Under the pieces are notes generated by a model. That model had not been told where the DNA came from, did not search any database, and worked only from the letters and a program-made list of their open reading frames with translations. A stretch of DNA of 53,200 bases from an uncultured Desulfobacteraceae bacterium (GTDB lineage: Bacteria > Desulfobacterota > Desulfobacteria > Desulfobacterales > Desulfatirhabdiaceae): assembly GCA_903953895.1 (NCBI GenBank), contig CAJBLH010000249.1:1-53200 (forward strand), in the 5' to 3' direction. The position numbers were made by a program, and so were the translations under genes. Positions within the stretch are counted from its first letter, which is position 1. Each line of letters starts with the position of its first letter. Below are positions 6,054 to 38,909 of this stretch, one piece after another.

Positions 6054-6443
6054 ATGAAAGAATTTATCAAGGTCATGAAAGCGCTATCAGACCCCAGTCG
6101 GGTAAAAATTCTCAAGATGCTCCAGCAGCGAATGCTCTGCGTATGCGAAATTCAGACCGCTTTGGGCCTTGCGCAGTCAACAACCAGCAAACATCTTAAA
6201 CTGCTTGAAAACGCCGGGTTGGTGGTGTCGTCCCGGGATGGGCTCTGGATCAACTACCGGTTGTCCGACGGCGCTCAGAGTGAATATGCGGCTGGCCTCA
6301 AACACAGCCTTGAGCGATGGCTGGATAGTGATCCGCAGATTGCCGAGCTTATCGAAAAACTTTCACAGATTCATCGTGAGGATATTTTGAATTCAACCAA
6401 AATCTGCAGGCAGGAGTCCCCCCATGCTGCTCGAAAATTATGA
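6054..6443 (+). CDS. arsR: ArsR/SmtB family metalloregulator
   Basis: 129 residues with the winged-helix core of the ArsR family (ALSDPSRVKILKML, then STTSKHLKLLENAGLV as recognition helix and wing). C29 and C31 in LCVCEI are at the position used by As(III)/Sb(III)-sensing ArsR proteins, where metalloid binding releases DNA. It probably represses its own transcript from the palindrome overlapping its promoter. Its end overlaps the next Fe-S gene by 20 bases, so both are co-transcribed. Whether it senses arsenic or another thiophile such as persulfide is not shown by sequence. Confidence 0.88.
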   Translation: MKEFIKVMKALSDPSRVKILKMLQQRMLCVCEIQTALGLAQSTTSKHLKLLENAGLVVSSRDGLWINYRLSDGAQSEYAAGLKHSLERWLDSDPQIAELIEKLSQIHREDILNSTKICRQESPHAARKL

Positions 6444-6948
6444 ATTGGAGATTTTCAACTCAAAATGCAATCCCGGTGCCCTGTCCGTCCACTGTTTTGC
6501 GCATCTGTCGCAGGATGTTTCAGATGCCCTGCCTTACCTGAATACGCTTCTGGGCGGTTTTGAATATCTGCAGGATCCGCCGTCGGTCACTTTCAAGGCC
6601 CAAGGCAAGCTCATTACGGTTCACGGTCGCAAAATTGCGGTCAACGCGCTCAAGGACGAGGCGGAAGCCCGAAAAATTATCGAATGGCTCAAGCGGGAAA
6701 TTAACGATGCCTGGGATCGGCGGGATCAGATCGAACCCAGTACGCAGTCCACCCCTCGGCCTAAACTGATAGATATCCTGAGACTTCTGCCCAAAACCAA
6801 CTGCAAGGCATGCGGGGAGCCCACATGTATGGTGTTTGCCGCCCGGGTTGTCGAAGGCGCCAAAGGCATCCAAAGCTGTACCGCGCTTGCTCCGGATGCG
6901 AAATCGGCGCTGGATGCCTATCTGAGCCGGTTCCATTTTCTGGATTGA
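6424..6948 (+). CDS. putative 4Fe-4S (Fes domain) protein downstream of arsR
   Basis: 174 residues. The first ~110 residues form an unrecognised alpha/beta region. The C-terminal part has CKACGEPTCMVFA and then SC, the C-x2-C-x4-C...C arrangement of the Fes-type 4Fe-4S domain (PF04060) found in corrinoid Fe-S proteins and RnfB. A role as a small electron carrier or regulator in an ArsR-controlled operon is inferred. The ATG lies within arsR, and spacing suggests translational coupling. No methyltransferase or corrinoid domain is present. Confidence 0.75.
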   Translation: MLLENYELEIFNSKCNPGALSVHCFAHLSQDVSDALPYLNTLLGGFEYLQDPPSVTFKAQGKLITVHGRKIAVNALKDEAEARKIIEWLKREINDAWDRRDQIEPSTQSTPRPKLIDILRLLPKTNCKACGEPTCMVFAARVVEGAKGIQSCTALAPDAKSALDAYLSRFHFLD

Positions 6949-10850: not shown

Positions 10851-10870
10851 AGTTAGTGAATTGTCTAACT
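10851..10870. promoter_or_regulatory. probable ArsR operator
   Basis: A dyad AGTTAG-N8-CTAACT lies just downstream of TTGACA and over the expected -10 position, 18 bases before the TTG start of arsR. A degenerate copy remains in the remnant at 5693-5713. Binding by the downstream ArsR is inferred from position. Confidence 0.5.
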
Positions 10871-10888: not shown

Positions 10889-11161
10889 TTGAAGAATACA
10901 CTCGCTTTGTTTAAGTCCCTATCCGATCAAAATCGCCTTCGGGTGGTAGCCGCTCTGCTTTCCTTTTCAGAACTCTGCGCCTGTCAGATCAAAGAACTGT
11001 TACAAATTACCGGTGCAACTGTATCCCGCCACATGGCGTTGCTGATTCAGGCCGGGCTGGTCGATAGCCGAAAAGATGGCAAATGGGTGTATTACCGGCT
11101 TCGAAATGGTCAGCCGGAAGTCAATGCCTTGCTTCAGTGGGTGGAACAAGACGAAAATTGA
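10889..11161 (+). CDS. arsR: ArsR/SmtB family regulator of the molybdoenzyme operon
   Basis: 90 residues. The TTG at 10889 is chosen because GGAGG stands 6 bases before it and the protein then starts exactly at the first family helix (LFKSLSDQNRLRVVAALL). C30 and C32 in ELCACQI form the metalloid-sensing pair of ArsR-type repressors. The recognition helix is GATVSRHMALLIQAGLV. It is followed after 39 bases by the TtrB-like subunit on the same strand, so it likely controls the respiratory operon as well as itself. An As/Sb or reactive-sulfur inducer would fit the context. Confidence 0.87.
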   Translation: MKNTLALFKSLSDQNRLRVVAALLSFSELCACQIKELLQITGATVSRHMALLIQAGLVDSRKDGKWVYYRLRNGQPEVNALLQWVEQDEN

Positions 11162-11200
11162 TTTTCATTTATCATTCACTTCAAAAGAAAGGAGTATGGT

Positions 11201-11953
11201 ATGGCAAGAATCTTACCTGGTGAAGATCTGCTGATCCGAATGCAACGGGATCTGAAGCGCTCCCTGGCGGCAGACATGTCTTCCATCAAATGGTCCATGA
11301 TCATCGACCAGGCAAAATGTGCGGGCTGCCATGCCTGCACCATCGGCTGTGTTTCGGAAAACAAACTGCCGCCCGGGGTTGTTTATCGTCCGGTGATCGA
11401 GGAGGAAGTCGGTACTTACCCGAATGTCCGGCGCAGGTTTCTGCCCCGGCCCTGCATGCATTGTCAGAACCCGCCCTGCACCAAAGTCTGTCCGGTGCAG
11501 GCCACCTATCAGAATCAGCAGGGGGTGGTCGTGGTCGATTACACCCGGTGCATCGGATGCCGCTACTGTCTGGTGGCCTGTCCCTATTCGGCCCGCACAT
11601 CGGATTTCGGCGAATGGTACACCACCGATACCCCGGATGCCGAAGGCAAAATGGTCGGTCGTGCCAAAGCTTCGGAGAGTTACGAAGCGATTCCTGCAAC
11701 CGAATACGGCAAACAGTGGCCTAAACGCGGGCATGGTTCACCGGTCGGAAACGCCCGCAAATGCCATTTCTGTCTCCACCGTGTGGCGGTCGGCATGCTG
11801 CCGGCCTGTGTCACCACGTGCGTGGGAAGGGCCACTTTTTTTGGCAACCGCAACGACAGCCAGTCGCTGATATCCGAACTGCTGGGGTCTCCCCGGGTTC
11901 ACCGGCTGAAAGAAGAGCTTGGCACCAAACCGTCCGTCTATTATTTGCAATAA
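11201..11953 (+). CDS. TtrB/ArrB-like four-cluster 4Fe-4S electron-transfer subunit
   Basis: 250 residues with four cysteine clusters: [35 protein letters not shown] and CHFC...CVTTC. This is the DMSO-reductase-family FeS subunit that wires the Mo subunit to a membrane anchor. A 34-residue N-terminal extension without a signal peptide precedes the first cluster, so export would be by hitchhiking with the Tat-borne catalytic subunit. AAAGGAG precedes the ATG. It is the first of three genes in the order B-C-A, the order known for ttrBCA and srdBCA. Confidence 0.88.
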
Positions 11954-11966
11954 GGGAGGGCAGATC

Positions 11967-13193
11967 ATGAAATCAAAATATTTCAATATCCTGGCTGTTA
12001 TTGCCGTGTTGGGACTGATCATCGGATGCTTCGGCATGGCGGATCGGCTCATGTACGGCCATCTCCATGCCGGCTATGGGTCTTATGTGCCCTGGGGGCT
12101 GTGGGTCGTGTTTTATCTCTTTTTTGTGGGGCTGACCGCCGGCGCATTCCTGATCACCATCATGACCTATGTTTTCGGCGTTACCCGGCTGAAAAATGTC
12201 GGAACGCTTTCTGCATTCACGGTTCTGGTGGCCCTGATGTGCGAGCTGATTTTCGTCTCTCTGGATCTGGGGCATTTTGGGCGGATCTATCGGTTTCTCA
12301 TCACGCCTAATTTTTCCTCCCTGATGACCTGGTTTGTCATTTTCACCAATCTGATGCTGATTATCTATCTCTTGGAGTGCTTTTTCCTGATCCGTGAAAA
12401 ACTGGTGCTGTGGTCCACAGAAAACCGCAGCGGCAAAGCCTTTTACCGGCTGCTTGCCCTGGGAAAAACCGAATATACCGCCTCAGACCGGGAGAGCGAC
12501 AATCGCATCGTAAGACTGCTTTCCATCATCAGCCTGCCTGCCGGCCTATTGTTTTACGGCACCAACGGCGCTTTTTTCGCGATTCTGCAAAACCGCCCGA
12601 TCTGGAACAGCGCCATGACCCCGTTGCTGTTCATTCTGGCCGCCCTGCTGTCGGGTGGTGCGCTGATCACTTTTCTGATCGCTGTATTCCATTCCGATGA
12701 CGAAATCACCCGTATTCTGGGACGTGCGGTTTTCTTCATTCTGGTCGTTTTTCTGCTGATGGAATTCATTCAGTTCTTCGTGGGATATAAAACCGGGATG
12801 ACGTCGATCCTGACCAGTCTGGATCTGATCGTCACCGGCCCTTACGCCTGGACTTTCTGGCTGGTTCATCTGCTTATCGGAAGCCTGATTCCACTGATTC
12901 TGTTCATTACCGGCATCAACAATCCCAAAGCCATTGCCTGGGCCTGCCTGCTGATCGTTGTCACTTTCGTATCGGTGCGGTTCAATTTTCTGATTCCGGA
13001 TCTGGCGGTGTATAAACTCGAGGGCCTTGAGCAGACATTTTCCCATCCGCGGCTGCGGACACATTATACCCCGAGTGTCAACGAGTGGCTGGTCAGTGTG
13101 TGGATCGTTTCTCTGGGAGTACTGGTGTTCATTTCCGGCATTCGCTGGCTGCCCATTTTATCATCGGAAAAAGGAGGTGTGAATCATGTTTGA
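11967..13193 (+). CDS. NrfD/PsrC/TtrC-like quinol-oxidising membrane anchor
   Basis: 408 residues from the ATG at 11967, preceded by GGGAGG. About ten hydrophobic segments begin with KYFNILAVIAVLGLIIGCFG, and SYVPWGLWVVFYLFFVGLTAGAF-type sequence marks the NrfD family. Such subunits exchange electrons between the quinone pool and the FeS subunit. It overlaps the catalytic subunit gene by 8 bases. The lack of haem-ligand patterns is normal for NrfD. Confidence 0.87.
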   Translation: MKSKYFNILAVIAVLGLIIGCFGMADRLMYGHLHAGYGSYVPWGLWVVFYLFFVGLTAGAFLITIMTYVFGVTRLKNVGTLSAFTVLVALMCELIFVSLDLGHFGRIYRFLITPNFSSLMTWFVIFTNLMLIIYLLECFFLIREKLVLWSTENRSGKAFYRLLALGKTEYTASDRESDNRIVRLLSIISLPAGLLFYGTNGAFFAILQNRPIWNSAMTPLLFILAALLSGGALITFLIAVFHSDDEITRILGRAVFFILVVFLLMEFIQFFVGYKTGMTSILTSLDLIVTGPYAWTFWLVHLLIGSLIPLILFITGINNPKAIAWACLLIVVTFVSVRFNFLIPDLAVYKLEGLEQTFSHPRLRTHYTPSVNEWLVSVWIVSLGVLVFISGIRWLPILSSEKGGVNHV

Positions 13194-16100
13194 TGATACC
13201 CCAGGGGATGCCCTGACAACGGTTTGTGAAAAAAATGTTTCGCGGCGGGAATTCATCAAATGCTCGGCCCTGCTGGGCGGTTCGCTGGCCGCCGCCTCAT
13301 ACCTGATTCCGCTGATGGACGGTGGAGAAAGAGGCATGGCGTTTGCCGACGATCTCATGGGGAACGCCTACACCCATCATCTGCCGGAAAATCAGATTTT
13401 TTCCGCCTGCCAGCAGTGCAACACCCAATGTGGCATCAAGGTGAAAATCCAGGATGGCGTGGTCAAAAAAATCGACGGGAATCCGTTCAGCCCGTGGTGT
13501 ATGACACCCCAGATCCCTTATACCACCCCCATGACCGAAGCGGCAACCATCGACGGGTCGCTTTGCCCCAAGGGTCAGGCAGGTATTCAAGCGCTGTATG
13601 ATCCGTATCGGCTGGTAAAGGTGTTGAAGCGCGCCGGAAAACGCGGAGAGAACAAATGGCAGATCGTTTCCTTCGATCAGGCCGTCACGGAAATCACGGC
13701 CGGCGGCAATCTGTTTGGAGAAGGCCCGGTTGAAGGTTTCAAGGATATCTGCACCCTGAAAGACCCGGGGGTTGCCAAGGCGCTGAGTGAAGATGCCGCA
13801 GCGGTCGCGGCCAAAAAGATGACGCTGGAGGATTTCAAAACCAAACATGCCGCGAATCTGGCCTATCTGATCGATCCGGATCATCCGGATATGGGCCCGA
13901 AGAACAATCAGCTCTGTTTCATGTGGGGCCGCCTGAAAGATGGCCGGGGCGATATCCTGAAGGATTTTTTCGGAAAAGCGCTGGGCACCGTCAATACCCA
14001 CGGCCATACCACCGTCTGTCAGGGGTCTTTGTATTTCACCGGAAAAGCCATGAGCGACCAGTTCATCGAAGGCAAATGGGACGGCGGCGACAAATTCTAC
14101 TGGCAGGCAGACACCGGCAATGCGGAATTCGTGATCTTTGTGGGATCAAACCCCTATGAAGCCAACTATGGCCCGCCGCTTCGCATTCAGAAAATCACCG
14201 AAGGGGTGGTGGACGGGCGGATGAAAATTGTCGTCGTAGATCCAAGGTGTTCCAAAACCGCCTCACGTGCCTGGAAATGGCTTCCGGTCGATCCCATCAA
14301 CGGGGTTACCGGTGTGGCCATGGGCATGATTCAATGGATACTGGAAAATAAACGATTCGATGCCCGGTATCTGCAAAACGCCAACAAAGGGGCAGCCAAA
14401 GCTGATGGCGAGCCCACCTGGAGCCAGGCGGCCTGGCTGGTTAAAATCGGAGAAAACGGCAAACCCGGTAAATATCTGAGGGGATCGGATCTGGGTGCCG
14501 AAATTGAAAAAAGGCCCAGAGCAAAGGCCGAAGACGGCGAATGGGAGTTTGACGCCTTCGTAACGTTGTCCAACAGCCAGCCCGTCCTGTTCGATCCCAA
14601 CAGCGAAACCGTTCCGGCTGAAGGAGAACTATTGGTCGATACCGAAATCAACGGTATCCGTGTCAAAAGTGTCCTTCAGATCATCCGGGAGACAGCCAAC
14701 GCCAGACCGCTCAAAGAATGGGCGGCTCTGGCCGGCATCGACCCCGACGACATCGTCGATATCGCCAAGGAATTCACCAGCCACGGCAAAAAGGCAGTGG
14801 CGGATATTCATCGCGGCGTCTCCCAGCAGACATCCGGTTTTTACAATGTGCTGTCCTGGTACACGCTCAATGCCCTGATCGGAAACACGGGATGGCAGGG
14901 TGGACTCAGCAAATCCACCACGTATGACCGGATGGGCAGCCGCCCGGGCAAGCCGTATGATCTGGGGAAAATCTGGAAAAAAGCCATCAAGGGCTGGGGG
15001 GTCAGCACCATCCGCCATGGGGTAGCTTACGACAAGACCACCCTGTTTGACGGCTATCCGTCCAAACGCACCTGGTATCCGTTCTGCAGCGACATCTATC
15101 AGGAAATCATCCCCAGCATCGGGGATCAGTACCCGTACCCGATCAAAGCTCTGTTCCTGTACATGGGCGCACCAGTCTATTCGCTTCCGGCCGGGCATAA
15201 ACTGATCGAAATTCTCTCCGATACGAAAAAACTGCCGCTGTTCATCGTCTCGGATATCGTCATCGGCGAAACCAGCATGTACGCCGATTATATTTTCCCG
15301 GACACCACGTATCTGGAAAGATGGGAGTTTGCCGGGTCTCATCCTTCCGTTGCCCCCAAGGTTTTTCCGATCCGCCAGCCGGTTGTGGCGCCGTTGACGG
15401 AAACTGTCCGGGTGTTCGGAGAAGATGTCCCCCTGAATGTCGAGGCTTTTGTTCTGGGGGTTGCCGAGAAACTGAATCTGCCCGGTTATGGAAAAGATGT
15501 CTTTGGTCCGGGCCAGAACATGACCCGTGAAGAAGATATGTACCTGCGCATGGTGGCCAATGTGGCATTCGGCGACAAGGAAGATGGCTCGGACAAGGTC
15601 AAGGCGGCTAGCGAGGAAGAACAGCAGATTTTTGACAAATCCCGCAAGCATCTGCCCAAAACCGTTTATGACCTGGAACGGTGGAAAAAAATCATCGGGC
15701 CGGAACTTTGGCCGCATGCCGTTACAGTACTTCTCCGTGGCGGCCGGTTTCAGGCATACAAAGACGCGTATAAAAATGATCAGTTGGCCAACCAGTACAA
15801 TAAGCTGATCGGTATTTACATGGAAAAGTTCGTTACTACCAAACATTCCATGACAGGAAAGTCTTATCTACCGCATGCCGACTATGTAGCCTGTCCAGCC
15901 GACTGCACCGGAAAGCTCATCGACGACAAAAGTCAGGGGTATGATATGACGATGATCACCTATAAAACCATCACTCAGACCAAAAGCCGGACATCCGGTG
16001 ACTACTGGCTCTCTGCAGTCTATCCGGAAAATTTCGTGGAAATTTCCAGTCATGATGCCCGAAGGCTCGATCTTCACAGCGGCGATCGGGTGAAAGTGGT

Positions 16101-16416
16101 TTCTGCGTCCAATCCGGATGGCGTCTGGGAGCTGGGCTTCGGAAGCCTGATTCCCATGATCGGTAAAGTCAAGGTCATTGAAGGTATTCGTCCGGGGGTC
16201 ATGGCGTTTTCTCTGGGTCATGGCCACTGGGGATATGGCGCCAGGCCGGTTGTCATTGACGGCGTCACGATTCCCGGAGATGCCCGAAGAGGTGCTGGAT
16301 TTCATGCCAATGCCGCCATGCGGGTTGACCCGGTTCTGAAAAACACCACGTTATGCGATACGGTCGGCGGCAGTGCGGTGTTTTACAACAGCCAGGTCAA
16401 ACTGATGAAGGTGTAA
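13186..16416 (+). CDS. Tat-exported TtrA/ArrA/SrdA-type molybdopterin oxidoreductase
   Basis: 1076 residues, close to the length of tetrathionate reductase TtrA and longer than most ArrA or PhsA. The Tat signal is SRREFIK at 19-25 with a following hydrophobic stretch, so it works in the periplasm. C75, C78, C82 and C127 bind the 4Fe-4S cluster; the 44-residue gap before the last Cys (in SLCPKGQAG) is characteristic of the Ttr/Arr clade. C278 in HTTVCQGSLYF is the likely Mo ligand. It probably reduces or oxidises a sulfur or metalloid oxyanion; tetrathionate, arsenate and selenate are candidates. A fragment matching residues 822-836 survives near 5.76 kb. Confidence 0.85.
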   Translation: MFDDTPGDALTTVCEKNVSRREFIKCSALLGGSLAAASYLIPLMDGGERGMAFADDLMGNAYTHHLPENQIFSACQQCNTQCGIKVKIQDGVVKKIDGNPFSPWCMTPQIPYTTPMTEAATIDGSLCPKGQAGIQALYDPYRLVKVLKRAGKRGENKWQIVSFDQAVTEITAGGNLFGEGPVEGFKDICTLKDPGVAKALSEDAAAVAAKKMTLEDFKTKHAANLAYLIDPDHPDMGPKNNQLCFMWGRLKDGRGDILKDFFGKALGTVNTHGHTTVCQGSLYFTGKAMSDQFIEGKWDGGDKFYWQADTGNAEFVIFVGSNPYEANYGPPLRIQKITEGVVDGRMKIVVVDPRCSKTASRAWKWLPVDPINGVTGVAMGMIQWILENKRFDARYLQNANKGAAKADGEPTWSQAAWLVKIGENGKPGKYLRGSDLGAEIEKRPRAKAEDGEWEFDAFVTLSNSQPVLFDPNSETVPAEGELLVDTEINGIRVKSVLQIIRETANARPLKEWAALAGIDPDDIVDIAKEFTSHGKKAVADIHRGVSQQTSGFYNVLSWYTLNALIGNTGWQGGLSKSTTYDRMGSRPGKPYDLGKIWKKAIKGWGVSTIRHGVAYDKTTLFDGYPSKRTWYPFCSDIYQEIIPSIGDQYPYPIKALFLYMGAPVYSLPAGHKLIEILSDTKKLPLFIVSDIVIGETSMYADYIFPDTTYLERWEFAGSHPSVAPKVFPIRQPVVAPLTETVRVFGEDVPLNVEAFVLGVAEKLNLPGYGKDVFGPGQNMTREEDMYLRMVANVAFGDKEDGSDKVKAASEEEQQIFDKSRKHLPKTVYDLERWKKIIGPELWPHAVTVLLRGGRFQAYKDAYKNDQLANQYNKLIGIYMEKFVTTKHSMTGKSYLPHADYVACPADCTGKLIDDKSQGYDMTMITYKTITQTKSRTSGDYWLSAVYPENFVEISSHDARRLDLHSGDRVKVVSASNPDGVWELGFGSLIPMIGKVKVIEGIRPGVMAFSLGHGHWGYGARPVVIDGVTIPGDARRGAGFHANAAMRVDPVLKNTTLCDTVGGSAVFYNSQVKLMKV

Positions 16417-16501
16417 GGCAACTCGCATGAAATAATCGTCTAGATCGTTGTGTTTTACCATGAAGCTAACCTTGATAATCGTTTTGCTTACATCGCTATA
16501 C

Positions 16502-16542
16502 CCCCCCGACCCTCCCCGGCTCGGGGAGGTCGGGAGGGGGGG
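16502..16542. repeat. long C/G-rich palindrome
   Basis: Imperfect arms rich in C then G, with a core CCTCCCCG / CGGGGAGG around a GCT loop, lie in the gap between the catalytic subunit and the flavoprotein gene. No T run follows. It could attenuate transcription between the two halves of the module. Confidence 0.6.
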
Positions 16543-16638
16543 CTGGCGAAACGATGATCATGGGGTTTTATTGCGTTATGGCAGGTTATATGTATTGTTT
16601 GGAATATTGGCGGATAAACTCTATGGGAGAACCACGAG

Positions 16639-17871
16639 ATGCGAAAAATCTTGATTTTAGGAGCCGGAGCCGGCGGTACCATTGTCGCCAACATGCTGCG
16701 CAAAGAACTTGACGAATCCGAGTGGCAGATCACCATCATCGATCGGGATGAACGTCATCACTACCAGGCCGGATATCTGTTCATCCCTTTCGGGGTATAT
16801 GGTGAGCAGGATGTTTTGAAACCCAAGAAAGAATTTATTCCCCAGGGTGTTGATTTTATCGTCGACAAGGTGGTGAAAATCGACCCCGGAGCGCGGCGCG
16901 TAGAAACCCTCAAGGGGCATTACGAATACGACTGGCTGGTGATTGCAACCGGCTGCGATATTCAGCCTTCTGAGATCCCCGGCATGCTGGATGGCTGGAG
17001 AAAAGATATCTTCGACTTTTACACGCTGGAGGGATCTCTGGCGCTGCGTAAGCGTCTGAAATATTTCACCTCCGGTAAGGTGGTTCTCAATATTGCCGAA
17101 GTTCCCTACAAATGCCCCATCGCACCCCTGGAATTCGTGTTCATGGCGGACTGGTTCTTTACCGTAACCGGCGTAAGGGACAAGGTAGAAATTGAATTTG
17201 TCACACCGCTCGACAATGTATTCACCAAACCGGTAGCGGCCAAAGCCCTGGCAAGTGTGGCTGAAAAGAAAAACATCAAGGTAACGCCTTTTTTTGATCT
17301 GGCTCAGGTCAATGCCGCAGAAAAAACCATCGAATCCCACAAAGGGCAAAAAGTCGGCTACGACCTGCTGGTGGCCATCCCGCCCAATATGGGCGCCAAA
17401 GCCCTGATCGATTCGAACATCAGCGACCCCGTGGGGTTTGTGCCCACAGACAAGCATACGCTGAAATCCGGCAATTTTGACCGGATATACGTGATCGGAG
17501 ACACGACCAATGTTCCCACTTCCAAGGCCGGCTCCGTAGCCCATTATATGGCCTACACCCTGGTCGAGAATCTGGTGCGTGAAATTGACGGGCATGCACC
17601 CCTGCCCAAATTTGACGGACATGCCACCTGTTTTCTGGCATCCGGCTTTGAAAAGGCGATTCTGCTGGACTTCAACTATGCGGTCGAGCCCTTGCCGGGC
17701 AGTTTTCCATTTCCGGGAATGGGCCCCTTCAGCCTGCTTCAGGAAAGCCTCAGCAATTATTGGGGCAAAATGATGTTTCGCTGGGTTTACTGGAATTTGA
17801 TGATGAAAGGGCTGGATTTGCCCCTGGAACCGCAAATGAACCTGGCCGGCAAAATCCGCCCGTCTGCATAA
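16639..17871 (+). CDS. sulfide:quinone oxidoreductase-like FAD flavoprotein
   Basis: 410 residues. The N-terminal dinucleotide fold is ILILGAGAGGTIVANML. A second FAD contact is RIYVIGDTTNVP near 283-293. C159 (in PYKCPIAPLE) and C331 (in HATCFLASGF) occupy the positions of the redox-active cysteine pair of SQR-type enzymes. The C-terminal amphipathic region (PFSLLQESLSNYWGKMMFRW) could bind the membrane. It likely passes electrons between sulfide or polysulfide and the quinone pool, complementing the NrfD anchor upstream. A related non-SQR disulfide oxidoreductase remains possible. Confidence 0.8.
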   Translation: MRKILILGAGAGGTIVANMLRKELDESEWQITIIDRDERHHYQAGYLFIPFGVYGEQDVLKPKKEFIPQGVDFIVDKVVKIDPGARRVETLKGHYEYDWLVIATGCDIQPSEIPGMLDGWRKDIFDFYTLEGSLALRKRLKYFTSGKVVLNIAEVPYKCPIAPLEFVFMADWFFTVTGVRDKVEIEFVTPLDNVFTKPVAAKALASVAEKKNIKVTPFFDLAQVNAAEKTIESHKGQKVGYDLLVAIPPNMGAKALIDSNISDPVGFVPTDKHTLKSGNFDRIYVIGDTTNVPTSKAGSVAHYMAYTLVENLVREIDGHAPLPKFDGHATCFLASGFEKAILLDFNYAVEPLPGSFPFPGMGPFSLLQESLSNYWGKMMFRWVYWNLMMKGLDLPLEPQMNLAGKIRPSA

Positions 17872-17885
17872 AGGAGGTATTCTCC

Positions 17886-18542
17886 ATGACAAATGAAGAA
17901 TTGATTGTACAACGCCTGGACCATCTGGAAAGCCAGGTCCAACCTTTGACGGCGTTTGCTAAAGCCGCAGGCGAGTTGCGTGAAGAACTGGCCCCGCGGG
18001 TCAGCGAGGCAGTGTCGGCGCTGATCACTGAATTGGCTGATGTCGAGGCCGATTTTCGAATGGAGGATCTGGTTTTTTTAGTCAAAAAACTGATGCGTAA
18101 CATCAATAACCTGAATTTTGCGCTGGATCAATTCAAAAATCTGGTTGATTTTGCCTTGATTGCCGAGCCGCTGCTGAAAACCAGCGTACCGCAACTGATT
18201 TCCTACGTCGATCTTCTCGAGCAAAACGGCGTGTTCCGTCTGATCACTGTCGGTACAGATGTGCTGAAGAAAGTCGGTTCAACGTATTCAGTTGAAGATA
18301 TGCGGCAAATCGGTGATGGGTTGGTGCATGTGATCGGTATCCTGAAAAAATTGACCGCGCCGGCAGCAATTGAACTCCTGGACCGGGCGGCCGATCTGCC
18401 TGCCCGGGTGGATGTCAGCCGGGCGCAGCCGGTTGGTTTTTGGGGAATCATCGGAGCCATGGGCGACAAGGAAATTCAGCAGGGACTGGGGGTCTTGATG
18501 GAACTCACAAAGGGCTTGGCCGCGCTGAAAACAGAGACATAG
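17886..18542 (+). CDS. DUF1641 family protein
   Basis: The ATG at 17886, preceded by AAGGAGG, gives 218 residues, mainly helical and with no membrane segment. DUF1641 proteins typically sit next to SQR-like flavoproteins, as here with a 14-base gap, and are thought to be accessory to them. Biochemical function is unknown. The C-terminal sequence PVGFWGIIGAMGDKEIQQGLG is the most conserved-looking part and resembles the signature of the family. Confidence 0.75.
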   Translation: MTNEELIVQRLDHLESQVQPLTAFAKAAGELREELAPRVSEAVSALITELADVEADFRMEDLVFLVKKLMRNINNLNFALDQFKNLVDFALIAEPLLKTSVPQLISYVDLLEQNGVFRLITVGTDVLKKVGSTYSVEDMRQIGDGLVHVIGILKKLTAPAAIELLDRAADLPARVDVSRAQPVGFWGIIGAMGDKEIQQGLGVLMELTKGLAALKTET

Positions 18543-18604
18543 CTCTCCCGATAAAGCCAACACCGGGCCATATTTATCCATGTTTTGCCCAAATTAGGGG
18601 GGCG

Positions 18605-19525
18605 ATGAATATGCTTCCTGCATCAGATTGTATCGCAGTTGAAAAACGGCATAGCCCTGATCCTGAGTTGCGAAAAGTCATCGAATCGGCTTGCATGGCA
18701 CTGAGTTGTCAATGCTGGACCTGCGGTTCCTGCGATGTTGAGTGTCCGGTCAATATCGCCACTGGCCGCCTCCGGCCCCAGAGAATCGTGAGGCTGGCCA
18801 GTCTGGGCTTTATCGAGGAATTGCTGGATTCGCCTGAAATCTGGTATTGTCTGACCTGCCGGCGCTGCCTTCAGATTTGCCCGAACCAGGTCGGACCGTG
18901 CGATATAATCAATTATGCAAGGCAGGAGGCGATTTCCAGGGGCGTTGTGAACTATTCGTCCGTAGGCCGTCTCCATCTGCTTTTCACCCAATTTCAGAGA
19001 GTGCGCTGGCGTGCCGTTGCGCAGTGCCTGAATAATAATTCTGACGTCCTGTCACGGGAACAAATCGACCAGTGGCTTGCAGAACCAGTTCCGGAAACCG
19101 GTCATGTGATTTCACCCCAAGGCATTCTTCCCGGCGGGTCTTTTTTTGCAATTTCCGCCGCCGCAACCCGGTCCGCTGCCTGCTTCACCTGTGGCGAGTG
19201 CAGCAGCGCCTGTCCGGTATCTGGGGAACGAAGCATTTTCGATATCCGGTTCATTATTCGCATGGTCAACCTCGGACTGGCAGAGGAATTGCTGAGATCT
19301 CCGTCCATCTGGCTGTGCCTGTTTTGTGGCTGTTGCACGGATGCGTGCGGCCAGCAGATCGACGGCCGCCAGATCATTCAACGCCTTCAGGCCGCCGCCG
19401 CCTCAGGTGGATGGGTGACGCCGATTGCTGTCTTTCGCATGAAAGATGCCGAAACACTGATTCTTTCACGTTTTCTGGATATGGTGGATGAAATTTTCGG
19501 TTTCAAGCGTCCGGACTCCTTCTGA
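18605..19525 (+). CDS. tandem HdrC-like 4Fe-4S protein
   Basis: 306 residues from the ATG at 18605, after an AGGGGGG site. Two HdrC-type modules are joined. The first has CWTCGSCDVECPV and CLTCRRCLQICP; the second has CFTCGECSSACPV and CLFCGCCTDACG. Each module resembles the two-cluster subunit of heterodisulfide reductase. Both contain the spacer R-x2-R-(L/M)-x2-LG-x2-EELL, evidence of internal duplication. It probably relays electrons between the flavoprotein and a soluble partner. No HdrA or HdrB gene is present nearby. Confidence 0.82.
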   Translation: MNMLPASDCIAVEKRHSPDPELRKVIESACMALSCQCWTCGSCDVECPVNIATGRLRPQRIVRLASLGFIEELLDSPEIWYCLTCRRCLQICPNQVGPCDIINYARQEAISRGVVNYSSVGRLHLLFTQFQRVRWRAVAQCLNNNSDVLSREQIDQWLAEPVPETGHVISPQGILPGGSFFAISAAATRSAACFTCGECSSACPVSGERSIFDIRFIIRMVNLGLAEELLRSPSIWLCLFCGCCTDACGQQIDGRQIIQRLQAAAASGGWVTPIAVFRMKDAETLILSRFLDMVDEIFGFKRPDSF

Positions 19526-19568: not shown

Positions 19569-20002
19569 ATGATCGTGAGTCAGAATTTCAAATTCGAAAC
19601 CCTTTGCCTGCATGCCGGCCAGCATCCCGGTTCGATCACGACACCCAGAGGCGTTCCTGTTCACAGAACCTCATCGTATGTGTTCAAAAGCACCCGATAT
19701 GCATCCGATCTTTTTGTCCTCAGGGAGCCCGGCAATATCTACCCCCGAATCATGAATCCGACCCAAGATGTTCTGGAACAGCGCGTCGCGGTCCTTGAAA
19801 ACGGCGCCGCAGCCCTGGCCTTTGCATCGCCGCTGCAGTATACTATGCCACCATCAACCTCTGTGCCGCCGGAGACAAAATCACCTTCGCCAGCAATCTT
19901 TATGGCGGTACCTACACGATGTTTGACTGCATTCTGCCGCAGTTCAGGGTTGCTGTTAAATTTGTGGATACAAGAGACACCGGCAATTTTGGCGGTGGGT
20001 GA
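19569..20002 (+). pseudogene. metY: O-acetylhomoserine sulfhydrylase (metY) fragment, frameshifted
   Basis: The first ~85 codons match the N terminus of MetY-type PLP enzymes (FETLCLHAGQ, SSYVFKSTRYASDLF, YPRIMNPTQDVLE). At about 19829 a small deletion shifts the frame; the other frame then continues as NLCAAGDKITFASNLYGGTY and stops at 20000-20002. The PLP-binding lysine and the whole C-terminal two thirds are missing. It is a dead gene that follows the doubled HdrC gene on the same strand. Confidence 0.8.
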
Positions 20003-20143
20003 GATTAGCTTAATCTTAAATAATTCAAGCCGTTCTTTTTGAGTACTGGTGCCCTTATAACGCCAAATGTAAGTCAATTTCAGACACCACCCTCTGATTG
20101 TGCTACTCAAAGAATAGGCGACTTTCGCCGCCTCCTGCCTGTG

Positions 20144-27720: not shown

Positions 27721-29415
27721 TCACCGAAGATTCTTTTCTGCCCATTCGGCCAGATATTCCCGGTGGATTTTGGCATTGTGCCGAATATCCACGGGGAAAT
27801 CCGGATGAAACAGAAAGGTATCGATATCTTTGATCAACAGGTTTTTGGCTGCCATATTCAAAAGCTCTCGTTTCAGCTCATTTTCGTAGGATGCACCTTC
27901 CTCACGGGTCTGAACGATGATGACGGGTTTTTGTTTGGGCGCTTTTCCGACGCCCACCAGGGCGCTTCGCAGCACATCGGGATGGTTGTTGAAAATGGCT
28001 TCGCAGGGAATGGTGTAAAGTGTTCCCGAAGGGGTCTGAACCCGATGGCTTTTTCTGCCGCAGAACCAGATCCGTCCTTTGGTGTCGGCCCATGCTAGAT
28101 CCCCCATCCGGTGCCAGAACTCTTTGCCGTCGCGAATTTTGGCCAGGCTGTCCGCTTCATGGTTTTCAAAATAACTCTGGGTGACCAGATCGCCTTTTAC
28201 CACGATTTCACCGATCTCCGCGGGCGGCAGGACAAGTTCATCGCTCCATCGGGCGATGGGTGTGTCCGTGATTTTGATGATGCGGACTTGCAGATCGTCA
28301 ATAGGCCGGCCCACACAGATGCCATAGCCTTTTTCGCTGAGGTTCCGGGTTTCAGAGAGGATTTCCCGACTGGAAATGGACAGAATCGGTACAGCTTCGG
28401 TGGCTCCGTATGGGGTATGAATTTCGGCATTATCACAGAGCAGGTGGCTGAACTGCTCGATATTTGCCGGAGATACAGGAGCGCCGGCAGAGACCACCCG
28501 CTTCAGGGAAGGCAGCTTGATTTCAGATTGTTTGCCGAAACTTCCCACCCGGTCCAGCAGCGCCGGGGAGGCAAACATATTGGTAACGCCCTGATTGATG
28601 ATGGCTTCGATGATTTGTTCCGGATCCACCTTGGCGGGTTGCGTGGGGTCCATATCCGGAATGATGGCGGTCATGCCGAGTGCAGGATCGAACAGTGCAA
28701 AGAGGGGAAATGTCGGCAGGTCGATTTCATCGCCGGATATTTGAAAATGAGACTGAATGTGGCGGATCTGAGCATCGAAATTTCCGTGTGTATAAACGGC
28801 GCCTTTGGCGGGGCCGGTGCTGCCGGTGGTAAACAAAATGGCGGCGGTTTCATCTTTGTGTGTGGCCACTATGGGAAAAGGTTGCCACGGGGTCAGCCGG
28901 AGGTTTTTCAGGGAGTGCCCTCCCCAGAACCAGCGGGAGCCCACGGTAATACATGTTTTGACGCTTCTGAAACTGCCCGGATGCAGCATTCTGAAAGCAT
29001 GGGCTTTGGAGATGCCGATAAAGGCTTCGGCTTTGCTGACTTTCAGGCAGGAAAGCATTCGCGGGATTCCCATGCCCGGGTCCACAACAACCGGGATGGC
29101 GCCGGTTTTGAACAGGGCGAATGTCAGGGTGAAAAAATTAAGACTTGGCGGAACCATCAGCACCGTGCGGGTTCCCCGTGTAATGCCGATGGAATCTAGA
29201 CCATGCGCCAGGCAGTCGGATTCCATATCCAATTGTCTGAATGTCAATTGCGAATAGGCGACTCTTCCATCCTCATCCCTTCCGGAAGGAGATACCACAG
29301 CACGTTTATATGGCTGTATTTTCGCCATCTGGGTCAGATGGAAAGCGATGTTCATCATTTTGGAATCAGATTGGGGCTGAATTGATTGTATCATCCTGGA
29401 GACCGTTATGCTCAC
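27721..29415 (-). CDS. oleC: OleC: beta-lactone synthetase (AMP-dependent ligase family)
   Basis: 564 residues. AILFTTGSTGPAKGAVYTHG is the P-loop-like A3 motif, TPYGATEA is A5 and WHRMGDLAWAD with GRIWFCGRKSHRV are A7/A8. FPVDIRHNAKIHREYLAEW at the C terminus is typical of OleC rather than of acyl-CoA ligases. OleC cyclises 2-alkyl-3-hydroxy acids to beta-lactones with ATP. The gene is last in a minus-strand run behind oleA and oleB. Possible starts are GTG 29415, ATG 29394 or ATG 29358; none has a strong ribosome-binding site. Confidence 0.88.
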   Translation of the reverse strand: MSITVSRMIQSIQPQSDSKMMNIAFHLTQMAKIQPYKRAVVSPSGRDEDGRVAYSQLTFRQLDMESDCLAHGLDSIGITRGTRTVLMVPPSLNFFTLTFALFKTGAIPVVVDPGMGIPRMLSCLKVSKAEAFIGISKAHAFRMLHPGSFRSVKTCITVGSRWFWGGHSLKNLRLTPWQPFPIVATHKDETAAILFTTGSTGPAKGAVYTHGNFDAQIRHIQSHFQISGDEIDLPTFPLFALFDPALGMTAIIPDMDPTQPAKVDPEQIIEAIINQGVTNMFASPALLDRVGSFGKQSEIKLPSLKRVVSAGAPVSPANIEQFSHLLCDNAEIHTPYGATEAVPILSISSREILSETRNLSEKGYGICVGRPIDDLQVRIIKITDTPIARWSDELVLPPAEIGEIVVKGDLVTQSYFENHEADSLAKIRDGKEFWHRMGDLAWADTKGRIWFCGRKSHRVQTPSGTLYTIPCEAIFNNHPDVLRSALVGVGKAPKQKPVIIVQTREEGASYENELKRELLNMAAKNLLIKDIDTFLFHPDFPVDIRHNAKIHREYLAEWAEKNLR

Positions 29416-29473
29416 GATGTATTTTTACGGCAAAGGTAACCGGCGATCTTCAATGGTTATCCCTGATAAGTGA

Positions 29474-30409
29474 TTAAAGGTTCGGAAGGTTACAACATGA
29501 TACCGGACTTTTCAAGAAGTTTAAAATTTCAACAAATGTTCTTTCCGGCTCATCCTCCAGGAGGTAATGGCCTGCATCCGGGAATCGGTGAATCCGGGCT
29601 TGGGGAAACCGTCGTTGCCATTCCAGCAAATAATCCGAATCAAAAACAAAATCGTGCATGCCCCACAGAATCAGCATCGGAATGGGTGACAACCGGTGAA
29701 GATGACGGTCTATCCATTGGAGCAGCGGATAGCTTGGATCGGATGGAACCATCGGAATATCATCCACGAATTTAAATGTGGCCAGCCGGTTGTTCCAGGA
29801 ATTGTAGGGCGCACAAAGCCCTTTTTTGATGTGACGGCCAAGCGCCTTTCGCGGCGCCATGACAAGGGCTGCACGGCAGAATAGATTTCCGCCCAAAACA
29901 GCGATTCTGGCAAGTGGTGCAAACCGTTTGAGTACCCGAAGTCTGAAGGGAAGTTTTTTGCCTTTCGGCGGAGAAAATGCAGCCGTATTCATCAGGATGA
30001 TCCGTGAGATGCGGCCCGGATGGCGCAGGGCGTAGCCGATGCCGATCGCACCCCCCCAGTCGTGAAGGATCAGGGTGATGGGCTTATCCAGCGCCAGATT
30101 ATCGAGCAGCCGTTCCAGATCATGAATCCGGCTCGACAGCCGGAAGTCATATTGTTCTTCATCCGGTTTGTCCGACAGCCCGCAGCCCATATGATCGACG
30201 ATGATGGTTCGGTAATCTGCGGAAAGCCGCCGGACGAGATTTCGAAAATAAAATGACCAGGTGGGATTTCCGTGGACCATGACGATCGGATCTCCCTGGC
30301 CTTCATCGAGGTAGTGATAGCGAAGTCCGTTGATGATCAGAAAATGGGATGCAAACGGATACAGATGGTGCAGTCCGCTCATGTCGATGGCGTGTGTTGA
30401 AATCGTCAT
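29474..30409 (-). CDS. oleB: OleB: beta-lactone decarboxylase (haloalkane-dehalogenase-like)
   Basis: 311 residues of the alpha/beta-hydrolase fold. The oxyanion region is HGNPTW (46-51), the nucleophile Asp117 lies in HDWGG and the catalytic His281 in DAGHY. This haloalkane-dehalogenase-like set is the one used by OleB to open the lactone and release CO2 to give a cis-alkene. AAGGACG precedes the ATG, and only 7 bases separate it from the oleA stop, so the two are co-translated. A true haloalkane dehalogenase is unlikely given the neighbours. Confidence 0.87.
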   Translation of the reverse strand: MTISTHAIDMSGLHHLYPFASHFLIINGLRYHYLDEGQGDPIVMVHGNPTWSFYFRNLVRRLSADYRTIIVDHMGCGLSDKPDEEQYDFRLSSRIHDLERLLDNLALDKPITLILHDWGGAIGIGYALRHPGRISRIILMNTAAFSPPKGKKLPFRLRVLKRFAPLARIAVLGGNLFCRAALVMAPRKALGRHIKKGLCAPYNSWNNRLATFKFVDDIPMVPSDPSYPLLQWIDRHLHRLSPIPMLILWGMHDFVFDSDYLLEWQRRFPQARIHRFPDAGHYLLEDEPERTFVEILNFLKSPVSCCNLPNL

Positions 30410-30416
30410 ATCGTCC

Positions 30417-31457
30417 TTACCATTCCAGACCCAGCATCATGCAGTTCAATCCACTGCCAATGCCAAAAAATCCGACCAGATCAGCTTTTTCCAGAAATCC
30501 CCGCTCCGATGCAATGGCAGCGGTGATGGGAAGGGAAGCAGTTCCGATATTGCCAAGAAACGGATAGGTGACAAAATCTTTGTCTTTGGAAATCCTCAGG
30601 GCATCCAGAATGGTTTTCTGGTGGGTGGCGCCTACCTGGTGGCAGATGATTTTATCGGGTTTGTCGGTCGTCCACTGCATCTCTTCGCGGAACATGCGAT
30701 AGGTCTCAACACCCAGCGTTACGCCGTGCTGAAGCACACCGATGGAATCGGTTTCCATGATCTGGGGCATGGTGGCCGGAATGCCGGTATCCGGTCCCCA
30801 GCGGCAGAGATCGTGATGCTGGGCCGCGTTTCGAATGGTTCCGCCCAGGAGCCGGTGCCCCTGACTCGAAAGGGATTCATGGCTTAAAATGACGGCGATG
30901 GCACCCGACCCGCCGGTCAGGGTAGCCACGGTTTTTCGAAAAATGTCCATATCCCGGGTTTCCAGCATACGCTGAATGCTCAAGTCCATGATCTGCCGGC
31001 TGGATTCACACGACACCACCATGCCTGCCTGAATCTGACCCAGTTCAATGGCGCTGGCGATCAGAATTATCCCGTTCAGGACACCGAGGCAGGCATTGGA
31101 AACATCATGGATCAGAGTCTCGGGTCCCAGCCCCAGCGCATGACAGACAGCGCAGGCGGTGGCCGGTTCAAGCTGATCCCGGCAGACGCCGCCGTAAACC
31201 AACATACCGATCTGGTCCGGGGAAAGATTTGATGACTGAAGCGCTTTTTTGCCGGCCAGGGCAGCGCCTTCATACATGGGAAACCCCGGATCCCAATATC
31301 GGCGTTCGCGAATGCCGGTAATCATTTCAAGCTGGCCTTTTTGGAAATGAAGAGCCTGGTAAAGCGGTTCCAGTCGCTTTTCGATATCATCAGAGGACAG
31401 GACATTCGGGGCCAGCTCATAGCCCATGCTGTCCAGATAAACCGTATTGAATTTCAT
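30417..31457 (-). CDS. oleA: OleA: head-to-head acyl-CoA/acyl-ACP condensing thiolase
   Basis: 346 residues of the KAS III/thiolase family. Cys123 (VSNACLGV) is the nucleophile. Glu97 (QLEPATA) matches the second-chain Glu that deprotonates the donor in OleA. His273 (CHQVGATHQ) and Asn303 (GNIGTAS) complete the site. OleA condenses two fatty acyl chains head to head to a 2-alkyl-3-keto acid. The gene begins 34 bases after the stop of the PUFA-synthase-like gene, suggesting that long unsaturated chains made by that enzyme are its substrates. Confidence 0.88.
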   Translation of the reverse strand: MKFNTVYLDSMGYELAPNVLSSDDIEKRLEPLYQALHFQKGQLEMITGIRERRYWDPGFPMYEGAALAGKKALQSSNLSPDQIGMLVYGGVCRDQLEPATACAVCHALGLGPETLIHDVSNACLGVLNGIILIASAIELGQIQAGMVVSCESSRQIMDLSIQRMLETRDMDIFRKTVATLTGGSGAIAVILSHESLSSQGHRLLGGTIRNAAQHHDLCRWGPDTGIPATMPQIMETDSIGVLQHGVTLGVETYRMFREEMQWTTDKPDKIICHQVGATHQKTILDALRISKDKDFVTYPFLGNIGTASLPITAAIASERGFLEKADLVGFFGIGSGLNCMMLGLEW

Positions 31458-31491
31458 AAATCTACCATGAACTCCCTGTGAAAAAAATGAT

Positions 31492-34400
31492 TCACGATAC
31501 AGACACCAGCCGGATGCCGAATTGTTTCATTTCATAAATCGTCAAACCATCTACGTAGAGAAACCCGTTTGCAATGATCATGGGAAGTGGTGCTTCTTCG
31601 ATTCGGGTGACGATTGCTTCCACCTTTACCTGTTTGTTTCCGGGGATAACCTGACCCCGGTAGATCCAGGTATGCTGAACTCCGGTAACCAGCGAAAATC
31701 GGCAGCGTGAAGCCAGATGGGGCCATTTGTCAATGGCGATGAACTTCAGAAGCTGGATGAACGCTTCAATTCCCAGAGAGCCGGGCCAGACCGGGTCATG
31801 ATAGAAATGGGCTTTGAAAAACCATTCCGATGGATCGACTTTTTTGGAACCCTGGATAAATCCCAGACCCGACGGGCCGCCTGCCGGGTCATACAGATCG
31901 ATGGAATCCACCATGCGAATGGCCCGGCCGGGCATGGCCAATGGCCCAATCGATGGCGGACAAAAGGCGCCTGGTTCCGGAAAGAATGGAGGTACATCCT
32001 CGAGAGGATGCGGTTGCCGGGCAGCACCCTGATCTTGGACCGGCTGATACCCTCTGTCATCTGTTTGGGCCAGGCCTTTTTGCTGGGCCAGGGCCGATTC
32101 CGTAAAAAAGCCGAATGTGGTCTCTCCCGCATAGATCACGCCACCGGCAGAAGCCACAGAAAAATCAAAAGATTCGATGATCATGTCAGCGGCGGAAGAT
32201 ACCTGGGTCAACCGGCATTTCATGGTCAGAACGCCAGCATCTGGAAACGAATCCTGAGAGATTCTGCCGCTACCGCCTAAATTTCGAAAGCGCAGATCCT
32301 TTGGGCTGGTAAGCGCCGAACCGGCATAAGCGGCCAACCAGCCGCAAGGCTGAAGTGCGATTTCCAGAAGTACGGCATAGGGCATGACGCCGGACCGGTC
32401 TGCCGAAAAATACCAGTCTGAAGGCGATACCGTGTATTCCGCTGTGATCCAGCCGCCTGGTTTCAGCACAAAGGCCGGCGGTTCCGTTCTGATGATGCGA
32501 TCGACAAACAAAAATGGCGGCCCGGGCAGCCGCGCCAGAAATCTGTCTTTGTCAAAATCCCGGAATGTCTCGCCGAAGGCATCTGACGGCTTGCCGACAG
32601 CCAGGGCCAGTATCTGTTCCCGGTCATAACGGCAGTTTTTGCGGTCGGGATGAGAGTCAGGCGGGTACACCCTGCCCCCTTTTTCCCAGAAAGGTTCGAT
32701 TTCTCCGCGGGTGACGCCGGTCATTTTAAGAGAAATATCCCGGAACATGACAATGTGCTGGCCGTCTGCAAACATGTGGGCATCGGCGATGACATAAGGT
32801 TCGGGGGTATAACCGAGTTCTCGGATTTCGACCTGGTACACCACATGACGGGTTTGGGGTGTCACCGGTCCCCGGCATTTCAGGATGCTTTTTACGCCGG
32901 CCACCGGTTCATAGCAAACACCGGGCTTGTCCGTCACCCAGCCCATGCGCTGAATGAACACGCGAAGGGTGTGGGCGCAGCATTCATACATCAGGGTTCC
33001 CGGCATGACCGGATCATCCATGAAGTGACAGGTTAAAAACCAGTCATCCGGATGGATGTCGGCCTGAGCCTGAATCATTCCAAGGCCATAACGTCCGCCG
33101 ACCGGGTCCAGGGTCAGCACCCGGTCGATCAGGCGCATCCTGCCGCCGGGAAGCCGAAGCGATTCTGAAAGCGTCATGTCGGCAAAATGCGTATCAAAAC
33201 AGGCGGCAAGATTGCCGGATCTCAAGGCGTTCACCTGAGTGTCCGAAAACGTTTCCACTGATCGGGGCGCCAGTTGTTTCCAGTCGGAAGGAATTTTTCC
33301 GGGTGCTGGTTGAAGTTCCGGCTCCGTGAGAATGATGCCGCCGGAATTGCGGACTTCCGTGTCGGTGAAGAATCCGGCACATCCATTTTCCATGGTGATC
33401 AACAGTTCGTTTCCAATAAAACCCTGGAAATGAAAAAAGAAAAGCCAGGTTTCCCCCTGACGGACGAATCGCTCGATCTCGATTTCGTACCGGATGACAT
33501 CTCCCGGTGACGGCAGTCCACGATGGAACTGAACCGCAGCATCCAGCAGGCGATAAGTGCGGAGTCCCTTGACTTGGAGATCGATACCCAGATAGGCGCA
33601 TAGAAACAGATCCGCCTGACCTGCTTCAACCGAGATGCACACGGGGGCATGGTTGCCATCCAGATACCAGGCCCCGGGAACGACGTCATGTTCGGTCACG
33701 ACACGCCCGGGGCCGAGAGAACCTTTTTGGCCGTCTACGCTCAGGATGCGGTCCACGAGCATCAGGGGCTCATCGGGAAGTCGGACTCTGGCTGGATACG
33801 TATCGACATCGGCGAACTCCGGCCCCAGGACTTTTGCCGCCGAACCGATGGCAAATTCCATGCAGAGGGAACGGGGATAGGAGACGGGCAGGGGGCAGGG
33901 GGCAAAATCGCTGCTGCCTGCAAGGTGCATACGGGCAAGAGGCCGGTCGCCCATACCGATTTCCGGGTGTACCATCTGGTGCTGGAGCAGCTTGGTTTGC
34001 AGAGCAAAACCATCGGCATAATCCCGGCTCAATGCATTAGAAAAATTCAGAAATGCCGTGTGGGCATCGGCGGTGGCGGAGGCATTTCGGATGACGGCAT
34101 CCACGATATCCGAGGGATACAAAACCGGGGCCGCCAGGGTGAGGGGGGCGGGTGTCTGAAAGACCGGATGGCTGCTATGCTCAGTGCCTGTGGATTCGCG
34201 GGCGAATCTGTCGGATGCGGACAGAGCAGTCGGCTGTATATCGGGCGCCTGCGGAAATTTGGGGTGGAAAGGGTTGCCTCCGGCCTTAAGGATCAGTTGA
34301 CGGCCGGTGGTTGGGGCGGTTTCCGGATAAGAATGTTCACCGTAAAGGGGTTCCAGATTCATGATAATCCGTTCTGTGGCCAGTGTTCCCAGAAGCTTCA

Positions 34401-38592: not shown

Positions 38593-38909
38593 AAATTCTT
38601 CTTTGAAAAAGGTTAATGATCGCGCTATATACCCCTTTTCCGGTTTTGTTTGCAATACCCCATTATTCTCACAGCAAAGGCGCAAAGATCGGAAAGGGAG
38701 TTGAAAAATATCAAATGATTGAAACGATGATCGAGGCCGAGGTTTTGTTTAGAATCGTTTCTGTTGTATAAACGATAAAAACATGAAATAATCATTCACA
38801 GGACAATCCGGATACGCGTCTTTTTCGCCTGATGAAATCGTGAAAAAAACTGTTCACAAAGCCGAATGTCTTGAAGGTGTCAATCATCTTAAAAGAAAGG
38901 AGCAATGCA
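38593..38909. other. divergent intergenic region upstream of the megasynthase operon
   Basis: About 317 A/T-rich bases separate the megasynthase start (minus) from the small repeat protein (plus). Promoters for both must lie here, but no clear -35/-10 or -24/-12 pair was seen. The stretch ACAGCAAAGGCGCAAAG at 38670-38686 resembles a common dispersed intergenic repeat. Confidence 0.4.

Follow-up and report, generated by a model that had tools for sequence, protein, structure and literature searches.

An ArsR-headed B-C-A molybdoenzyme operon joined to a type III SQR in an uncultured Desulfobacteraceae bacterium

Introduction

What is the substrate of a tetrathionate reductase-like gene set that stands behind an ArsR repressor and ahead of sulfide-handling genes, and do these genes form one system? 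The locus that raises the question lies in a stretch of 53,200 nucleotides (the window; contig CAJBLH010000249.1, here C249) from the 5.5-Mb draft genome of an uncultured Desulfobacteraceae bacterium. Profiles of Pfam and NCBIfam give the gene order as ArsR, B (iron-sulfur), C (membrane anchor), A (catalytic subunit), SQR (sulfide:quinone reductase), DUF1641 protein and tandem HdrC-like ferredoxin. All seven open reading frames (ORFs) described in an earlier, sequence-only reading are present where it put them, on the plus strand and in that order; chance ORFs are ruled out because profile cut-offs were passed, the spacing is tight and homologues exist in other genomes. Below, compared genomes, loci and contigs carry codes beginning with G, L and C, and published work is cited from the accessible part of each paper. 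The anatomy of the operon, the clade of its A subunit, the arsenic genes around that clade and the repeated joining of two modules form the substance of this report.

Results

The A subunit belongs to a distinct clade of TtrA homologues

The A subunit, 1076 residues long, carries RRxFIK and CxxCxxxC motifs. Its nearest curated model is that of TtrA (NF011567), with 449.8 bits against a cut-off of 1750, followed by PsrA/PhsA (NF012032; 183 bits, cut-off 694) and ArrA (NF041714; 108.9 bits, cut-off 1600). Plain membership of TtrA, ArrA or PhsA was set aside, since all three cut-offs were missed. Each of the 25 proteins of one A alignment matched the TtrA model, which gave the best E-value for the alignment overall. 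The predicted structure of A (pLDDT 81) gives matches that show the superfamily fold only: ArrA (6cz7) comes first by E-value in Foldseek, and VIA-align places formate dehydrogenases, PsrA, acetylene hydratase and ArrA within about 1.5 Z of one another.

A contig scan of genomes gave 546 confirmed loci, and the best 80 of these, 50-91% identical to A, were kept. They are labelled Desulfobacteraceae, other Deltaproteobacteria, Myxococcota, Chloroflexota, Bacillota, Rokubacteria, NC10, Acidobacteriota, Ignavibacteriota, Planctomycetota, archaea and others. The stretch HTT[VI]CQGS[LI]YF surrounds the metal-ligand cysteine in 82 of 90 aligned rows, the window's A included; the eight rows without it are three TtrA-type plasmid rows, one haloarchaeal row and four of another type. 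These 82 rows form one clade with a local support of 100 (FastTree), several outer rows lying on long branches. A is therefore a member of the HTT[VI]CQGS[LI]YF clade of TtrA homologues, the same clade as the genes of Anaeromyxobacter sp. PSR-1 described below.

A second active-site type, HT-IC--SHH, occurs in G001, G007, a Citrobacter arsenatis plasmid and L152. The Citrobacter plasmid (NZ_CP037863, L223) is conjugative and carries, between ars operons, a B-C-A set with the active-site stretch C-E-L-S-H-H; tblastn matches at the same 31% level come from plasmids of E. coli, Salmonella and Enterobacter.

Arsenic genes recur around the clade

Under a loose rule that accepted ArsR with a CxC pattern (from 27 bits), Acr3, ArsA, ArsB or an ArsP-type permease, 22 of the 80 A loci have at least one ars gene (8 by CxC ArsR alone), compared with none of 22 controls (Fisher p 0.003). 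The controls, loci in which an SQR or an HdrC gene stands alone, are few, in part short and unmatched in phylum. A pump, pump ATPase or permease is found at 14 of the 80 loci and Acr3 at 10; neither was detected at the control loci. The Acr3 count is far above chance, because the expected frequency is about 0.28% per random 20-kb neighbourhood, as estimated from 36 over-cut-off occurrences in 57 genomes of one order at an assumed mean size of 4.5 Mb. Function-blind clustering of 642 neighbouring ORFs from 79 loci, most clusters being named from the Pfam match of a single representative, gave kinases or regulators (at 30 loci), phosphonate-type binding proteins (23), FmdE/MoCF (18), ArsR (16), ArsP permease (8) and small thioredoxin (8). 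The FmdE-like and MoCF-domain proteins, which make up one cluster, lie mostly downstream of A, and their recurrence suggests a role in cofactor handling.

At locus L088 ars genes precede B-C-A, and an SQR-like gene (515 bits), a weakly DUF1641-like gene (26 bits, with no Pfam match), ArsR, Acr3 and ArsC follow, all on one strand from B on; more ars-type genes lie upstream of B-C-A.

In the arsenate respirer Anaeromyxobacter sp. PSR-1 no arrAB was found by its authors (PMC4432346, accessible part). The PSR-1 genome encodes two A homologues of full length that fall in the HTT[VI]CQGS[LI]YF clade and lie on one contig with Acr3 and ArsR, and it has one distant partial match of 26 bits; we detected no ArrA match there at an E-value of 1e-50, and no ArrA over the cut-off in the window's own genome. 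In Melioribacter roseus a phosphonate-binding two-component system and arsRPCB lie alongside the ttr locus, and the transcripts of both molybdoenzymes rise on arsenate, that of Psr/Phs significantly and that of ttrA not; its authors prefer the Psr/Phs enzyme as the main reductase (PMC5492636, accessible part). When the class was searched around an Ignavibacteriales locus, 2 of 119 genomes, one of them the search centre, had a match at an E-value of 1e-150.

The surroundings of the clade point to arsenic or antimony rather than to tetrathionate or selenate. The sequence-only reading had placed A among tetrathionate, selenate and arsenate reductases; as to family this agrees with TtrA being the nearest curated model, but as to substrate the surroundings narrow it. 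That reading also named, as grounds for its own refutation, an A subunit from a well-characterised clade with a known substrate; this applies weakly, a published arsenate respirer without arr having members of the clade.

B-C-A is repeatedly joined to SQR and DUF1641

The window's SQR scores 644.7 bits against NF049943 ("type III SQR, selenoprotein subtype"; cut-off 525). The published motif of this subtype is HxxU (PMC13188914, accessible part). Selenocysteine (U) occupies that site in 6 of 43 SQR rows, and the window's protein, with HATC, is a cysteine form of this family. Selenocysteine-coded type III SQRs are found at L195, L190, L192, L194, L199 and L208, and in G348 (L195, L237) such an SQR lies directly upstream of DUF1641 and of a B-C-A set of the window's A clade.

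The DUF1641 protein scores 44.9 bits against PF07849 (cut-off 21); its predicted structure was set aside for low confidence (pLDDT 53). DUF1641 adjoins SQR in all 12 relatives over the SQR cut-off. The SQR-DUF1641 pair in turn adjoins B-C-A on the downstream side in the window, G001, G007 and G160 and on the upstream side in G348. At L097 DUF1641 alone is visible, upstream of B-C-A, and in G002 and G006 the contigs end behind A with the beginning of an SQR. Among 395 sampled genomes 28 have an SQR over the cut-off, and an A match occurs in 16 of these 28, compared with 77 of the 395 overall; these counts are uncorrected for kinship and include TtrA-like matches of 31-35% identity.

The B-C-A part differs among close relatives. 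G001, of the same genus, has an ArsR and an SQR-DUF1641 that are 78% and 87% identical to the window's at the nucleotide level, but between them stands a B-C-A set with the other active-site type, whose A is 46% identical to the window's in amino acids and which is accompanied by rhodanese and FmdE. G160 has B-C-A followed by SQR-DUF1641 in the same order as G001, with rhodanese, FmdE and MoCF, and its A is also of the other type. G002, again of the same genus, retains FmdE and MoCF behind an A that is 91% identical and ahead of the start of SQR; the window has in their place 222 bp, which contain dispersed repeats and a palindrome rich in GC. Parts of the repeat stretch holding this palindrome (16414-16564) are matched on ten further contigs of the window's genome. 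A further arrangement was observed on contig C221 of G006 (L072), where a second arsR stands directly ahead of an A gene (92% identical) of which the last part alone is present; this is a decayed operon duplicate or an assembly join.

The regulator is of the metalloid type

The arsR gene starts with TTG at 10889, and a GGAGG-like site lies ahead of it. Its product scores 85.8 bits against the ArsR/SmtB metalloregulator model NF033788 (cut-off 55) and 68.8 of the 97 bits set for the narrower E. coli-type model PRK10141. The protein reads ELCACQI, and we take its Cys-x-Cys to be the As/Sb site of metalloid repressors; the metalloid cysteine pair noticed earlier is thus borne out as the CxC kind. 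Induction by reactive sulfur, which had been proposed beside it, is weak: against the BigR model of reactive-sulfur sensors the protein reaches 40 of 155 bits.

An inverted repeat, GTTA...CTAAC, lies in a shared block ahead of all four related arsR genes compared (the window, G006 twice and G001), and a perfect 15-bp repeat was found in the window and was absent from the three relatives compared. Taken with the upstream repeats, the ELCACQI motif suggests a repressor of the As(III)/Sb(III) type that regulates its own gene. Scans for promoters and terminators gave matches no more frequent than in shuffled sequences.

Tandem HdrC and layout of the locus

Four CxxCxxCxxxC motifs were recognised by eye in the tandem HdrC-like protein, and Pfam assigns it 4Fe-4S domains; it scores 115.6 bits against the HdrC model of CoB-CoM heterodisulfide reductase (TIGR03290), below the 160 required. 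Tandem HdrC occurs in 16 of 395 genomes of the phylum, the window's included. In none of the 13 neighbourhoods read in the phylum does it lie near A or SQR. Among the loci read there is one other linked case, G014 (L076), with an A-type gene, a chaperone and HdrC2. The tandem HdrC is best seen as an addition in the window's lineage.

The B subunit is a ferredoxin-type Fe-S protein with four cysteine groups (counted by eye), and the C subunit matches NrfD (PF03916, 123 bits). Coordinates are collected in Table 1.

Table 1. Features of the operon, in window positions
Feature	Position	Strand	Remarks
Perfect 15-bp inverted repeat, 8-nt loop	10799..10836	n/a	Upstream of arsR; possible operator
GTTA...CTAAC inverted repeat	10852..10869	n/a	Just upstream of arsR; candidate ArsR operator
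ArsR repressor, C-A-C motif	10889..11161	+	As(III)/Sb(III) type by motif
B subunit, 4Fe-4S ferredoxin	11201..11953	+	DsrO/TtrB-like, under the cut-offs of both models
C subunit, NrfD-type membrane anchor	11961..13193	+	ORF open from 11919; presumed quinol-oxidising
A subunit, Mo/W-bisPGD catalytic	13186..16416	+	Tat-type signal; Cys278 at metal-ligand place; signature GHTTVCQGSLYF
Intergenic stretch, GC-rich palindrome (16501-16541)	16417..16638	n/a	Partial repeats elsewhere in genome
Type III SQR	16639..17871	+	Cys159 and Cys331; Cys331 at HxxU site, here HATC
DUF1641 protein	17886..18542	+	Constant partner of this SQR type
Tandem HdrC-like protein	18605..19525	+	Four CxxCxxCxxxC motifs; no HdrB-type CCG motif seen

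Elsewhere, the window codes for another ArsR, whose metalloid motif is CVC (6054-6440). An Fe-S protein matching PF04060 comes next (6424-6948), and G001 has a close homologue of it near SQR-DUF1641. Behind the operon, at 19569-20042, is a truncated remnant resembling O-acetylhomoserine sulfhydrylase (MetY-like, by eye), part of which (19587-19990) matches the gene behind SQR-DUF1641 in G007. The stretch 27721-38685 holds, by eye, an OleA/B/C-like hydrocarbon cluster beside a 2397-residue synthase of the polyunsaturated-fatty-acid type.

Discussion

Proposed function and its alternatives

In our reading the operon, controlled by ArsR, would serve respiration on an oxyanion of a metalloid. As(V) and Sb(V) are the likeliest substrates and thioarsenate a possible one, and electrons would pass from sulfide through menaquinone to As(V); our confidence in this falls somewhat short of even. 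Substrate, direction, coupling and the role of HdrC are what we infer from the gene order, the protein families, the clade, its surroundings and the conserved upstream repeat. In the proposed mechanism ArsR would be released by As(III) or Sb(III), menaquinol would be oxidised by the NrfD subunit C, and electrons would travel via B to the exported molybdo- or tungsto-enzyme A, which would reduce the oxyanion at its Cys-ligated metal. The type III SQR with DUF1641 would oxidise sulfide at the membrane and refill the menaquinol pool, so that the operon would code for a chain from sulfide via menaquinone to As(V); the tandem HdrC would be an addition of this lineage, a soluble electron carrier with four clusters. 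Reduction of As(V) or Sb(V) by A, with electrons supplied from sulfide by SQR, would fit sulfide-dependent arsenate reducers such as MLMS-1 (PMC11283718, accessible part). We put forward only tentatively, as a rather doubtful proposition, the wider view that one operon is a complete metalloid-inducible lithotrophic chain, that As(V), Sb(V) or thioarsenate is reduced by the non-Arr clade, whose genomes and metagenome-assembled genomes bear the labels of more than ten phyla, and that B-C-A is a cartridge exchanged between a fixed ArsR and a fixed SQR-DUF1641. Both halves of the chain are known separately; their pairing may be new.

Several observations weigh against the sulfide-to-metalloid reading. 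The curated model closest to A is that of TtrA, and the operon has no efflux pump, the one Acr3 found in the genome sitting on contig C266. On ArrA numbering, which we assume to apply, residues 247-250 of A pair with the arsenate site of ArrA. The ArrA motif there, R/KGRY (PMC11283718, accessible part), reads W247-G248-R249-L250 in A. The stretch read around SQR-DUF1641 has no A-type gene in nine of the 12 relatives over the cut-off; of these nine stretches, that of G044 is just 3.3 kb long and two more contain NrfD and Fe-S genes of a different kind. SQR was matched at 2 of the 80 A loci, many of which are on short contigs, and in one of the two it is distant and on the other strand. MetY-, MetX- and MetW-like genes, recognised by eye, follow SQR-DUF1641 in G007 and G160, and the pair may serve general sulfide handling. 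In G006, the nearest relative, whose A is 91% identical, a match of 58 bp to SQR is all that precedes the contig end and the genome yielded no SQR; the gene is lost, broken or misassembled there. The sequence-only reading had named independent occurrence of the blocks on either side of 16.5 kb in most relatives as a ground for refuting it, and with tandem HdrC standing apart in 13 of 13 cases this is seen in part; its link between oxyanion enzyme, quinone pool and sulfide keeps an SQR that could join the pool to sulfide, but the modules are often apart. The seven genes as one conserved operon were rejected, since the full set was found in the window only and, among the loci read, HdrC2 near A otherwise only in G014.

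These relatives, the MetY-like remnant of the window and the missing or cut SQR of G006 would suit a shared transcript with two independent functions: reduction of As(V)/Sb(V) and, by SQR-DUF1641, the handling of sulfide, with no electron coupling selected between them. We place this on the unlikely side, as the adjacency of SQR and B-C-A recurs in several families, in two arrangements and with two A types, and A matches are enriched in SQR genomes, kinship uncorrected. It is also conceivable, though we judge it unlikely, that B-C-A reduces a sulfur oxyanion or sulfane (tetrathionate, thiosulfate or polysulfide), that SQR and rhodanese recycle the sulfide and that ArsR answers reactive sulfur or is a bystander. 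TtrA is after all the best curated model of A, SQR is in the cluster, joined by rhodanese in G001 and G160 (with the other A type), and a distant plasmid relative (L226) lies beside a non-CxC ArsR, YeeE and OsmC genes. However, A falls 1300 bits short of the TtrA cut-off and its active-site stretch is unlike those of the three TtrA-type plasmid rows; in a search of the 80 clade loci for rhodanese, YeeE, OsmC and SQR, SQR alone was matched, at two, compared with 22 that have ars genes; and the CxC of ArsR is that of a metalloid sensor, with the BigR score low. Very improbable is the reverse direction, in which the enzyme would oxidise arsenite or antimonite and reduce quinone as Arx does: both directions occur in related families (PMC10100899, accessible part) and an As(III)-induced ArsR suits an As(III)-using enzyme, but the adjoining menaquinone-reducing SQR would compete for the same pool and the published physiology of one clade organism is arsenate reduction.

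The HTT[VI]CQGS[LI]YF clade, present in many phyla, is a source of candidate genes where arsenate is respired without arr, as in PSR-1. A survey of sulfur-driven arsenate respiration sought arrAB with R/KGRY plus sox or dsr (PMC11283718, accessible part), and by those criteria this clade would be missed. The pairing with SQR makes sulfide-dependent As(V)/Sb(V) reduction testable and bears on the release of arsenic in sulfidic water.

Comparison with known systems

A literature search at the level of titles and abstracts, with subscription journals mostly outside its coverage, found no molybdoenzyme operon with SQR, DUF1641 and HdrC. TtrA homologues have been linked to arsenate respiration in PSR-1, in M. 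roseus (MROS_1076) and in Pyrobaculum (PAE1265). The PSR-1 system is alike in its TtrA-type molybdoenzyme, in its clade and in the ars genes of the locus, and is unlike in having no SQR match there. M. roseus is likened by its published surroundings (arsRPCB and the phosphonate-binding two-component system) and not by clade placement, and the accessible part of PMC5492636 mentions no SQR. Pyrobaculum PAE1265 is likewise compared by description and not by clade placement.

ArrAB shares with the window's A a Cys-ligated Mo enzyme and the top Foldseek match, and in some bacteria arr is under ArsR control, as is proposed for the window's operon. It differs in that A reaches 109 of the 1600 bits of its model and is without R/KGRY, and in the separate NrfD subunit and B-C-A order of the window. 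TtrBCA has the same B-C-A order and subunit types, whereas A reaches 450 of 1750 bits and has a different active-site stretch; a match to TtrS was sought and not found in the first 30 kb of the window, where ArsR is present instead, and TtrR was not searched for. The selenoprotein subtype of type III SQR shares the HxxC/U site, the KCP site and the RWVYW stretch, whereas the window's protein has Cys for selenocysteine and is joined to a molybdoenzyme operon. MLMS-1 and mine-tailing bacteria couple sulfur oxidation to arsenate reduction (PMC11283718, accessible part), the same overall reaction as that proposed for the window's operon; there it is assigned to arrAB with sox or dsr, and not to one operon with SQR.

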